A DNA stretch of 64,000 nucleotides, taken from Gracilibacillus oryzae. GTDB taxonomy: Bacteria > Bacillota > Bacilli > Bacillales > Amphibacillaceae. Shown here piece by piece: positions 30,263 through 61,886 of this stretch; position 1 is the first letter of the stretch; every line of letters begins with the position of its first letter. A program made the position numbers and the translations under genes. The notes under the pieces are model-generated. The model did not search any database. It was given only the letters and a program-made list of their open reading frames with translations, and was not told the origin of the DNA. Location: positions 25,357 to 89,356 of the forward strand of contig NZ_ML762435.1 in NCBI RefSeq assembly GCF_009498735.1. Reading direction: 5' to 3'.

Positions 30263-30384
30263 CATAATCGTATACTCAACCTTTCTATCTATAATCTCTT
30301 TTCAGGAGATATATCGAAAAAGTTTTCACAATTTTCGTATTCACCCGATGATTATAGAGTTAGAAAGTTACAAGTTACATCTTC

Positions 30385-30450
30385 CCTCATAGTCCATCAT
30401 TTACGGTGACAGGTAGAAACTGCTGGGCCTTATTCCCAAATTATATGAGG
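30385..30450 (-). ncRNA. Guanine-type purine riboswitch of the pur operon
   Basis: The minus strand shows the aptamer in order: P1 CCTCAT / ATGAGG, ATAAT junction, P2 with the AATAAGG loop, the J2/3 TTTCTACC, P3 with the CCGTAAAT loop, then GGACTATGAG. The base before TATGAG is C, the residue that selects guanine over adenine. It lies between the purE promoter and the terminator at 30206-30262, so guanine or hypoxanthine should end transcription early. Confidence 0.95.
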
Positions 30451-30489
30451 ATATTATTTTTAATTGTTAGATTACTTAACTGCACTTCT

Positions 30490-33891: not shown

Positions 33892-33951
33892 CTCATACAA
33901 TTCAGAGATATTGCACTGAACGCAAAAAATTGCGGACAGAAAATATCTCCT

Positions 33952-34022
33952 CCTCGTAGTCAGAGCAATTAATGGTGCTCCGGTAGAGACTCTTGGGCCA
34001 TATTCCCAACATTATACGACGG
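33952..34022 (-). ncRNA. Guanine-type purine riboswitch of the purine permease gene
   Basis: The minus strand reads P1 TCGTA / TACGA, P2 with the GAATATGG loop, J2/3 GTCTCTACC, P3 with the CCATTAAT loop, then GACTACGAG. The specificity base is C, so guanine/hypoxanthine is the expected ligand. It lies between a sigma-A promoter and an intrinsic terminator. Confidence 0.95.
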
Positions 34023-34055
34023 ATGGTAAATAATAATATTAATAATTTCATTAAT

Positions 34056-35922: not shown

Positions 35923-35940
35923 AATCACGATAGACCCCCA

Positions 35941-36012
35941 CCCTCATAGACCGAACATTTAAGGTGTTCAGGTAGATACATCTGGGCCCTATTCCCAAAC
36001 TTATATGAAGGT
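35941..36012 (-). ncRNA. Purine riboswitch of guaA, slightly divergent
   Basis: The minus strand reads CTTCATATAAG, P2 GGG / CCC with a GAATAGGG loop, J2/3 GTATCTACC, P3 GAACA / TGTTC with the CCTTAAAT loop, then GGTCTATGAGG. The specificity base is C as in guanine aptamers. The base before it is U where the other two copies in the window have A, and the P3 loop has T for G. It should still be a guanine sensor, but the core differs from its neighbours. Confidence 0.88.
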
Positions 36013-36059
36013 CAACAGATGATAATTTCATCTTATTCTATCAATCGACGTTTTTTTGG

Positions 36060-60156: not shown

Positions 60157-60185
60157 TCCACATTTTTGCGGAAATAATTTATAAT
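60157..60185 (+). promoter_or_regulatory. Promoter of the leader-peptide transcript
   Basis: A perfect TATAAT at 60180-60185 lies 17 bp downstream of TCCACA (60157-60162). The first open frame starts 25 bp later, so the leader RNA would be about 160 bases before the CD3324-family gene. Confidence 0.6.
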
Positions 60186-60209
60186 GTGATGCAAATGGAG
60201 GTGTTCGGT

Positions 60210-60269
60210 ATGGCAATTAATCTTTCATTGCCAGAGTTATTGGTAACCCATGCAAAGCCTGGTAACTAA
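60210..60269 (+). CDS. 19-residue leader peptide upstream of the CD3324-family gene
   Basis: The frame MAINLSLPELLVTHAKPGN followed by TAA is preceded by AATGGAGGTG with good spacing. Its last codons and stop lie inside a nested hairpin (60252-60320), so a ribosome held on the leader would disrupt that structure. This layout is typical of translational attenuators for ribosome-targeting antibiotics. The peptide is not one of the Erm, Cat or Tet leaders I know. Confidence 0.55.
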   Translation: MAINLSLPELLVTHAKPGN

Positions 60270-60320
60270 GGCGATACTTTGTATGGGAGATAGTCAATAT
60301 CGCCTGTTCTCAGGCTTTGC
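60252..60320 (+). promoter_or_regulatory. Nested hairpin, possible attenuator of the CD3324-family gene
   Basis: Outer stem GCAAAGCCTG (60252-60261) / CAGGCTTTGC (60311-60320) encloses inner stem GGCGATA (60270-60276) / TATCGCC (60298-60304). The leader-peptide stop codon is in the internal loop between them. No T-run follows; AAGGAG for the next gene is at 60338-60343. The hairpin does not directly cover that site, so the mode of control is unclear. Confidence 0.6.
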
Positions 60321-60354
60321 CCTTATAGAAAAAATATAAGGAGCTGGGCCAAGC

Positions 60355-60621
60355 ATGAAATATATGAAGGCAACAGAAGTGCTGCCAGAAGATTTACTGG
60401 AAAGATTACAAGACTATATTCAAGGGGAAATGCTCTATATTCCCAAAAAGGAAACTGCTCGCAGCAAATGGGGAACGCGGTCTGGAAATCGTCAGTATTA
60501 TGATGAAAGAAATAAACAGATTACAGGAGCATTCCAAAACGGAAGCAAGCTGGAAGACTTAGCGGAAGAGTATCATCTATCAATAGAGACAATTAAGAAA
60601 ATTGTTTATAATAAAAAATAA
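60355..60621 (+). CDS. CD3324 family putative DNA-binding protein
   Basis: An 88-residue protein of the CD3324 family. The N-terminal YMKATEVLPEDLLERLQDYI and YIPKKETARSKWGTRSGNR segments and a C-terminal helix-turn-helix-like LEDLAEEYHLSIETIKKIVY are typical. Members resemble Mor-type activators, but targets and function are not established. The gene follows the leader peptide and nested hairpin and is ended by a strong terminator, so it forms its own unit ahead of the FusB-type gene. Confidence 0.75.
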   Translation: MKYMKATEVLPEDLLERLQDYIQGEMLYIPKKETARSKWGTRSGNRQYYDERNKQITGAFQNGSKLEDLAEEYHLSIETIKKIVYNKK

Positions 60622-60623
60622 TG

Positions 60624-60670
60624 AAGCTATGGCAGGAATAGTTCATACCCATTCTTGCCATAGCTTTTTA
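60624..60670 (+). terminator. Intrinsic terminator of the CD3324-family gene
   Basis: AAGCTATGGCAGGAAT / ATTCTTGCCATAGCTT is a 16-bp stem (one G-T or mismatch) followed by TTTTTAG. Confidence 0.88.
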
Positions 60671-60712
60671 GTGCTGGTCTGTTACAATAGATAATTGGAA
60701 GGAGTGCTGAAG

Positions 60713-61348
60713 ATGGAAGCATTTATACACGCAGATCACTATCATTTTATCCAGGAACAAGGACGTTCGATTGTACAAGCGAAAGTGCAATCTACTGACA
60801 AGGGTGTTGTCCAGGCAGTACGAGAAATGGCATTGGAGAAAATAGCCAATAAATTAAGTGACTTAAATGATGAGCAGAAACAATTATTAATAGATATGAA
60901 GCTGATTGAGGATAAAGAAGGTTTAGAAAGTTTTCTTGGAAAACTAAAGCCGTATGTTATCCCATTTCCTGCAGTGTCTGAGAAAACAGTGGAGAAGGCA
61001 TTTCCTAAAGTAAAAAAACTGAAGCAGCCTGATCTCGAAGACTACGATTTGCAAGAAACTGTTTACCTTCGCTGGGAAGATCTTGGCACGAACAGAACGT
61101 ATATGTTAATCCCAAAACAAGGTAAGCTTGTTGGTGTATCAGGCTTTTTAGAAACATCTGTCCATAAAGGAATCTGTACCATTTGCGGCGGCCTGAGTGA
61201 GGTTTCCCTTTTTACTGTAGAAAAGAAAGGGCGAATCCGGGGAACTTACTCCAAAAAGGGAAATTACATTTGTAAAGATGAATCAGCATGTAATCATAAT
61301 ATAAAAGACATAGACAAACTGCATGCCTTCTTAGATAACTTGCAATAA
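60713..61348 (+). CDS. FusB/FusC family EF-G-binding protein
   Basis: A 211-residue protein of the FusB family, which binds elongation factor G and releases it from ribosomes stalled by fusidic acid. It has an N-terminal helical bundle (residues ~1-80) and a C-terminal zinc-binding domain; the four-Cys pattern CTICGG...CKDESACNH is visible near residues 155-200. The start ATG at 60713 has AAGGAG 10 bases upstream; an in-frame TTG at 60695 lies before that site and was rejected. Chromosomal homologues occur in many Bacillaceae, so it may be a housekeeping translation factor with resistance as a side effect. Confidence 0.88.
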   Translation: MEAFIHADHYHFIQEQGRSIVQAKVQSTDKGVVQAVREMALEKIANKLSDLNDEQKQLLIDMKLIEDKEGLESFLGKLKPYVIPFPAVSEKTVEKAFPKVKKLKQPDLEDYDLQETVYLRWEDLGTNRTYMLIPKQGKLVGVSGFLETSVHKGICTICGGLSEVSLFTVEKKGRIRGTYSKKGNYICKDESACNHNIKDIDKLHAFLDNLQ

Positions 61349-61434
61349 AACTCATCTGAAACTGATTCTGCATTGTATGTCATCAAGTTGATAGCTCGCT
61401 TTATTCTTCATTCCACAGCTTGGCATGCGCTGGG

Positions 61435-61860
61435 TTGATGTTTAAACGGGCTTTATTCTTCACATCCCTGCTTAGCATCCACTCATTTGATGTTTAAACA
61501 CATTTTATTCTTCATTCCGCTGCTTAGCATGCACTGGGTTGATGTTTAAGCAGGTTTTATTCTTCATCCCCCTGCTTAGCATCCACTCATTTGATGTTTA
61601 AACGCATTTTATTCTTCATTCCGCTGCTTAACATGTGCCGGGTTGATGTTTAAACGCGCTTTATTCTTCATCCCCCTGCTTAGCATCCACTCATTTAATG
61701 TTTAAACACATTTTATTCTTCATTCCGCTGCTTAGCATGCACTGGGTTGATGTTTAAGCAGGCTTTATTCTTCAGTCCACTGCTTAACATCCACTCATTT
61801 GATGTTTAAACGCATTTTATTCTTCATCCCGCTGCTTGGCATGAACTGATTTGATATTTA
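61435..61860 (+). repeat. Tandem array of a 52-bp unit in two alternating types (104-bp higher-order repeat)
   Basis: TTGATGTTTAA-type landmarks recur at 61435, 61487, 61539, 61591, 61643, 61695, 61747, 61799 and 61851, always 52 bp apart. Two unit types alternate: one has CATCCACTCATTTGATG, the other has GCACTGGGTTGATG (GTGCCGGGTTGATG in one copy). The array is thus a 104-bp dimer repeated about four times. Each unit contains TTTAAAC and CTGCTTAGCAT. Another unit-like stretch begins before 61435. It lies between convergent fusB-type and MMPL genes, with no open coding frame. Confidence 0.93.
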
Positions 61861-61886
61861 AACATACTCCACTCCACAAAAACAGC

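Follow-up and report, generated by a model that had tools for sequence, protein, structure and literature searches.

In Gracilibacillus oryzae, a conserved structured RNA that carries a short leader frame lies ahead of a CD3324-family gene and a FusB-type gene. We regard it as somewhat probable that together they form a two-step relay, in which a ribosome-sensing attenuator would control a CD3324 activator and this activator would in turn control the neighbouring resistance-type gene. A single, simple attenuated operon of both genes is the less likely arrangement: the leader most likely acts on CD3324, which in turn probably governs the FusB-type gene through a separate promoter, located beyond a terminator-like hairpin. 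All positions refer to the window, which is the whole stretch of 64,000 nucleotides that was analysed, and the features of the locus are collected in Table 1.

Table 1. Features of the leader, CD3324 and FusB-type region, in window positions.
Feature	Position	Strand	Detail	Basis
Promoter-like hexamers	60157-60185	+	TCCACA / TATAAT, 17-nt spacer	10/12 matches
Leader Shine-Dalgarno (SD) sequence	60197-60203	+	GGAGGTG	letters; place kept in relatives
Leader frame	60210-60269	+	19 codons, MAINLSLPELLVTHAKPGN, and stop	ATG 60210, TAA 60267-60269
Hairpin P0 over leader start codon	60211-60233	+	60211-60217 with 60227-60233	fold and swap test
Fold A	60247-60287	+	segment 1 (60247-60257) with segment 2 (60277-60287)	covariation
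Fold B, outer stem	60252-60259 with 60313-60320	+	segment 1 GCAAAGCC with segment 4 GGCTTTGC	covariation
Fold B, inner stem	60270-60276 with 60298-60304	+	GGCGATA (segment 2) with TATCGCC (segment 3)	covariation
Helix C, covering the CD3324 SD	60321-60341	+	anti-SD CCTTAT (60321-60326) with ATAAGG (60336-60341)	covariation
SD of CD3324 gene, closing the structured RNA	60338-60343	+	AAGGAG	letters
CD3324-family gene	60355-60621	+	88 aa, Mor-like, probably DNA-binding	NF040785, PF08765
Inverted repeat and five T, terminator-like by eye	60626-60669	+	same repeat as operator-like dyad 60628-60667	
-10-like hexamer	60683-60688	+	TACAAT, TG one base before	letters; spacing kept in other loci
FusB-type EF-G-binding gene	60713-61348	+	211 aa	PF07299, PF16571

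The structured RNA is about 140 nt long, carries the leader frame and ends at the SD sequence of the CD3324 gene. The fold of positions 60192-60375 has an energy of -56.1 kcal/mol (z -2.95), and none of 200 shuffles was equally stable. For the start-codon hairpin P0, the energy over 164 distinct leaders was -6.28 kcal/mol with the own halves and -4.64 kcal/mol with swapped halves. The original prediction, made from the window alone, had described a strong promoter and a 19-codon frame with a good ribosome-binding site. The frame and its SD sequence were recovered as described. The promoter hexamers are in place, yet twelve hexamer-pair sites of this quality occur in the region and 11.7 are expected from shuffles, so the word strong is unsupported. 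A terminator within the element was considered and dropped, since the scan of the window (loops of up to 8 nt) lists none on the forward strand inside the RNA. The divergent neighbour of the leader encodes a VTC-domain protein (PF09359; 59360-60061, reverse strand). Elsewhere in the window, three purine riboswitches (RF00167) lie on the reverse strand within 6 kb, at 30370-30468, 33937-34039 and 35927-36028.

The spread of the RNA was measured with a covariance model, R1, which was built from 20 sequences and knows nothing of genes. R1 matched in 139 of 397 genomes of the order sample (50 of 135 genera), in 95 of 398 genomes of the class sample (27 of 145 genera) and in 10 of 398 genomes of the phylum sample (7 of 267 genera); the three samples overlap. 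Within the genus, CD3324 is present in 11 of 17 genomes, the window's own included, with the RNA upstream in all 11 loci, and the same RNA is also found at loci of other genera and families. The 175 elements counted below are those in the fetched loci, a subset of the R1 matches, and 20 of them were used to build R1. Loci repeating an element already counted (L059-L063, L068, L079, L082, L111) and weak second matches (on L075, L086 and L141) were left out. Three elements (L154, L157, L210) could not be segmented, which leaves 172 for the structural counts. R1 gave no match at L013, L023 and L028. One locus (L163, genome G143) carries two R1 elements of equal score 765 bp apart, with a CD3324 gene after each. 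Another genome (G724) carries four (L215, L216, L217, L218), each ahead of a different gene. Two of these genes are CD3324 genes, one of them followed by an AadA/ANT(9)-like gene, and the other two are a FusB-type gene and a SpoU rRNA methyltransferase gene.

On the element in the window, no Rfam 15 family scored above its gathering threshold. Nine loci searched at E values up to 10 gave six sub-threshold matches, none of them on the element, and ten further loci gave no match on the element. In the open-licence PMC literature, with published RNA-motif lists hardly covered, we found no description of the RNA class, of its linkage to CD3324 or of the relay; in the portion available of one RNA-motif paper, the main text holds no EF-G or fusidic terms (PMC6429828). 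As far as the literature covered goes, the RNA class, the linkage and the relay are undescribed, and leader attenuators and Mor-type activators as such are already known kinds.

The leader frame is kept in relatives. By a loose rule, a frame reaching segment 1 is present in 171 of the 172 segmented elements. When an SD sequence with at least 5/7 matches and a frame open through segment 1 were both required, 161 of 172 elements still qualified; after shuffling of the upstream DNA, 15.1 did so on average. The start codon lies 36 nt ahead of segment 1 in 102 of 171 leaders. These counts argue against a reading in which the leader frame would be incidental to an RNA that works by binding a ligand, as a riboswitch, or a protein. 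The RNA sequence is indeed more conserved than the leader peptide, and alternative folds exist, as such an element would have. Nevertheless, we consider this reading very unlikely, also because the studied homologue, plasmid fusB, acts through stalling on its leader, according to the part of the source available (PMC12008383).

The peptide itself is a different matter. Of 171 leaders, 135 read HAK, with codons that hardly vary; these near-invariant codons are the ones that pair, so their constancy is expected from RNA pairing and gives no clear sign of selection on the peptide. Some elements have another frame, ending in SCKA or SCRA (L151, L201 and, by eye, L231 of Paenibacillus cellulosilyticus). 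A leader peptide acting as a nascent-chain sensor is unsupported, in view of both the constant HAK codons and the use of another frame in some elements. A second frame starting from ATGCAAAG (60250) was also set aside, since by eye it stays open in only some of the relatives.

Two folds of the RNA, A and B, covary in relatives, and they are mutually exclusive because segment 1 (60247-60259) has two partners. In alignment A3 (100 sequences), fold A is paired in 98.5% of cells, with both-side changes in 4 of 11 pairs; this alignment was not built on the fold A helix, but was fitted to the two helices of fold B, namely 1:4 and 2:3. In the same fitted alignment, the outer stem 1:4 is paired in 98.6% of cells (both-side changes in 3 of 8 pairs) and the inner stem 2:3 in 89.3% (7 of 7 pairs). 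The swap test, in which own and swapped halves were compared over 155 distinct sets, gave z values of -11.6 for A, -5.3 for 1:4 and -19.7 for 2:3, which are inflated because the sequences are related. The original prediction had drawn a two-tier hairpin with the leader stop codon in its internal loop, and it hinged on conservation of the frame and the stems in relatives. Both stems are present, the stop codon sits between the outer and inner tiers of fold B, and covariation, as well as the frame counts above, attests that frame and stems are kept. The nested hairpin is, however, just one of two competing folds, since fold A covaries too. Fold A, hairpin P0 and, between CD3324 and the FusB-type gene, the terminator-like hairpin with a separate promoter-like region go beyond the original prediction.

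Two further helices concern the SD sequence of CD3324. Helix C, which covers it, is paired in 86.5% of cells, with both-side changes in 2 of 6 pairs (100-sequence alignment, corrected register), and the swap test found no coupling over 155 distinct sets (z -0.3). Helix D would join segment 2 to the anti-SD and so free the SD. It is paired in 76.5% of cells, a value that 6 of 500 shuffles equalled, and its covariation score exceeded all 500 shuffles; the swap test gave z -2.5, and about 30% of sequences are one column out of register. As an SD-freeing step, helix D is appealing by eye in L030, L115 and L119 and mixed overall, and we keep it only as a possibility. Helix D and 2:3 together make a pseudoknot, which is beyond the model of the folding program.

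Static folding with a model ribosome was carried out on sets of 70 and 45 sequences drawn at random from the 171 elements with a leader. In the set of 45, a model ribosome placed between 15 and 6 nt ahead of segment 1 lowered the cost of opening the SD from 6.63 to 5.45 kcal/mol at best, with easier opening in 67% of elements, and one on segment 1 or shortly after it raised the cost to 7.4-7.6 kcal/mol. The set of 70 gave the same trend, with small changes further downstream. Opening that is harder for a ribosome on or just past segment 1 does not match a simple model in which the ribosome pauses at the stop codon. Of the 171 leaders, 46 have this codon in loop 1, 28 have it within segment 2, and in 97 it falls between segments 2 and 4. 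Because the stop position varies and static folding has the opposite sign there, we do not propose a recycling sensor, in which a ribosome on the leader stop would be the trigger.

Taken as the first step of the relay, the RNA would work as follows. The last codons of the leader lie in segment 1, for which two alternative partners exist: segment 2 in fold A, and segment 4 in fold B, which also includes 2:3. The anti-SD beside segment 4 would pair with the CD3324 SD and hold translation down. If a ribosome slowed down towards the leader's end, segment 1 would stay unpaired, the fold would shift and translation of CD3324 would rise. We infer this ribosome-dependent switching and an inducer for it. 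The original reading of the locus as a translation-stress switch is reasonable by analogy, because a leader-based translational attenuator has been published for plasmid fusB of S. aureus.

Which genes stand behind the RNA? A CD3324 or FusB-type gene follows 169 of the 175 elements: CD3324 comes first in 136 and FusB directly in 33, and the remaining six have something else or a broken gene. By eye, the six include a broken-frame CD3324 followed by FusB (L094, L164), the start of CD3324 only (L116) and the start of FusB only (L088). At L217 the gene is a SpoU-type rRNA methyltransferase (PF00588, E 5.5e-25; NshR/TsnR model 1e-7, far below its cut-off), and at L157, where the element has no SD, it is acetyltransferase-like, with no NCBIfam match. 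FusB stands further on, in the stretch examined, in 93 of the 136 CD3324-first loci. In the 43 loci without FusB, the product of the next gene resembles a GNAT acetyltransferase (10), an alpha/beta hydrolase (7), an APH-type kinase (6), a nucleotidyltransferase (5, one of them AadA/ANT(9)-like), a beta-lactamase fold (2), a SpoU methyltransferase (1) or an unnamed protein (1, L160); the other 11 fall outside the class counts, among them L159, a SpoU methyltransferase by profile. None of ten such next-gene proteins reached the cut-off of a named NCBIfam family, so the term resistance-type is a fold-level statement.

In the window, the FusB-type protein carries both EF-G-binding domains above gathering, as the original prediction of a FusB-type gene implied: 78.1 bits for PF07299 (gathering 27.1) and 41.8 bits for PF16571 (gathering 27.2). 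It remains below the NCBIfam cut-offs for fusB (124.1 of 375 bits), fusD (114.1 of 450), fusF (112.4 of 435) and fusC (103.1 of 400), which makes it a relative and not a named resistance allele. After the gene, positions 61390-61870 are filled by repeat units like TTTATTCTTCATTCCGCTGCTTAGCATGCACTGGGTTGATGTTTAAAC (by eye). FusB-type genes of Listeria monocytogenes (L226), Enterococcus faecalis (L227) and S. aureus plasmid pUB101 (L228) have, by eye, a leader frame and inverted repeats of their own and no R1 match; the FusB-type family may have leaders in general. On the Priestia megaterium plasmid pBMV_2 (L224), an EF-G-binding gene directly follows a macrolide glycosyltransferase gene, in a stretch with no R1 match.

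The protein encoded by the first gene is probably a small DNA-binding regulator, judging from family profiles and a structural model. It scored 114.8 bits against NF040785 (cut-off 65) and 30.1 bits against PF08765, the Mor transcription activator family (gathering score 24.9), in agreement with the CD3324-family, putatively DNA-binding gene originally named; the closest named relative found is that of G. ureilyticus, with 74% identity. The AlphaFold model, of moderate quality (23 sequences; pLDDT 79.2, pTM 0.48), has a C-terminal helix-turn-helix. Foldseek of this model against the PDB gave nothing at an E value of 0.001 or better, and rank 2 among its hits was the phage Mu activator C bound to RNA polymerase. 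In VIA, residues 43-88 reached Z 6.5 to Mu Mor (1rr7) and C (9l0x), which is tied with unrelated helix-turn-helix proteins (best 7.1), so that the fold match is at the level of any helix-turn-helix. For CD3324 as a Mor-like protein, the Pfam match is the better evidence than the fold comparison. No match to the window's CD3324 was found among 50,697 phage records at E 1e-5. In the open-licence PMC literature, the matches to the name CD3324 were nematode work only, and those to Mor transcription activators with Bacillus and antibiotic resistance were prophage work. Five CD3324 genes of other Bacillales (L019, L020, L021, L022, L027) share a different upstream region, with AAGGAGGACGTAAAT before the start, and a higher block with GGTGATTTCCGC is visible in four of them.

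Between CD3324 and the next gene lies a 35-bp dyad (motif 40 wide, half site about ATGGCGAGTTT). The 136 CD3324-first loci gave 125 intergenic regions, of which 120 were long enough for the search; a single dyad is common to the two elements of L163 (L163 and L163b), and some of the loci come from nearly identical relatives. The dyad scored above 4 in 108 of the 120 regions and above 15 in 101, against a shuffled 99th percentile of 0.1, the motif having been trained on the same regions. When it was trained on FusB-linked loci, it was found in 23 of 31 other-gene loci, and in the reverse direction in 81 of 89, with the -10 hexamer at the same distance. Its symmetry score was 8.7 against 1.9 for the next shift. 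The dyad of the window scored 32.1, and the window's own genome has one place only with these half-sites and this spacing at up to three mismatches. Two named plasmids with R1 and CD3324 (L225, L229) carry the dyad as well. None of 174 upstream-plus-element stretches scored above 15 (two above 4), and none of the 33 FusB-first loci did (highest 8.2). Nine CD3324 loci with other leaders (L013, L019-L023, L027, L028, L230) stayed at or below 6.3 on the forward strand. Control stretches taken from where the second gene begins (125 in all) gave a score above 15 once, at L011, where the gene call began inside the intergenic region.

A -10-like hexamer follows the dyad window by 15-17 nt in 93 of the 101 loci, and in 86 of these 93 the -35 position matches TTGACA in at most three of six letters. 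This arrangement is the geometry of an activator-dependent promoter. Mor, for its part, binds a dyad just upstream of its promoter and activates that promoter without a -35. The Mor-like product of the gene immediately upstream is the obvious candidate for a dyad binder, and its binding is what we infer. A dyad over the -35 region is also a usual site for a repressor, and CD3324 might act as one here, in which case the leader would act to reduce the output of the second gene. We hold this to be improbable, since the promoters have no recognisable -35 and the Mor family consists of activators.

The dyad also bears on the possibility of a simple attenuated operon, in which the leader would regulate CD3324 and FusB jointly, through translation or read-through, CD3324 would have no DNA target and the dyad would serve only as a terminator or as a structure at the mRNA end. 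One and the same sequence forms the dyad and the terminator-like hairpin in the window; the terminator scan, which allows loops of up to 8 nt, does not list it because its loop is 11 nt long. Dyad conservation within Gracilibacillus thus has two possible causes. The 33 elements with FusB alone behind the same RNA would fit such an operon too. However, many loci outside Gracilibacillus have, by eye, a separate terminator-like hairpin ahead of the dyad. The fixed distance from dyad to -10, the low dyad scores of the FusB-first loci and the match of CD3324 to the Mor activator family point the same way, and we judge a simple operon unlikely.

In the second step of the relay, CD3324, as a small Mor-like helix-turn-helix protein, would bind the 35-bp dyad, centred about 50 bp upstream of the putative transcription start of the next gene, and would activate a promoter in which a -10 is present and a proper -35 is missing. 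The target would mostly be FusB and, in other loci, an acetyltransferase, phosphotransferase, nucleotidyltransferase, rRNA methyltransferase or esterase. Genomes with the RNA directly before FusB would skip the activator step.

Several known systems resemble parts of this proposal. According to the portions available of the papers on it, fusidic acid induces plasmid fusB of S. aureus by way of translational attenuation, in which ribosomes stall on the leader and the SD is freed, and, as in the window, the FusB-family gene of pUB101 is preceded by a leader frame and an inhibitory mRNA structure (PMC12008383, PMC3352095, PMC12493156). A hairpin at the start codon, and a long stem whose end is close to the stop codon of the leader, can likewise be made out by eye in pUB101. 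Unlike the locus here, the pUB101 locus has no R1 match (E up to 1, filters off), and the stretch shown has no CD3324 gene. In the open-licence PMC literature, the matches listed for fusB or attenuation are, by title, staphylococcal and resistance work. The vmlR leader of B. subtilis, as described in the accessible part of its source, likewise combines a short upstream frame, antibiotic-induced stalling and an SD-sequestering hairpin before a ribosome-protection gene, but its frame encodes a tripeptide and it contains an intrinsic terminator (PMC9226507); none is listed on the forward strand of the R1 element. The short SD-led frame, the mutually exclusive helices and the SD-covering helix of the window are features of a leader-peptide translational attenuator. 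The Mor and C activators of phage Mu (PF08765; PDB 1rr7, 9l0x, 9l0y) share with CD3324 a family match above gathering and, in its structural model, a helix-turn-helix; CD3324 differs in being shorter and chromosomal and in adjoining resistance-type genes. The dyad and -10 geometry of a Mor-type promoter without a -35 is present at the locus, with binding and activation by CD3324 being putative.

In Actinobacteria, an upstream frame of WhiB7/WblC senses ribosome inhibition and so controls an activator of resistance genes. Whether CD3324 is the counterpart of WhiB7 in Bacillota seems to us an even bet: Mor-like activators under a ribosome-sensing leader would each drive one exchangeable neighbour (FusB, GNAT, APH, ANT, SpoU/TsnR-type rRNA methyltransferase or esterase) from a dyad-dependent promoter. 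If true, environmental Bacilli would widely carry a resistance cassette that is modular and inducible by drugs. It would give the uncharacterised CD3324 family a likely function, together with a site and a sequence model for finding its targets, and neighbour genes of unknown substrate would be probable inducible defences against ribosome-targeting compounds. The conserved leader RNA without an Rfam 15 match, ahead of FusB-type genes or a linked activator, makes the proposal directly testable. The two systems would be alike in their working, from a ribosome-sensing frame to a transcription activator. They differ in that CD3324 is Mor-like and not a WhiB protein, and in that WhiB7 has a large regulon, whereas the target of CD3324 appears to be the neighbouring gene, in keeping with the single dyad in its own genome.
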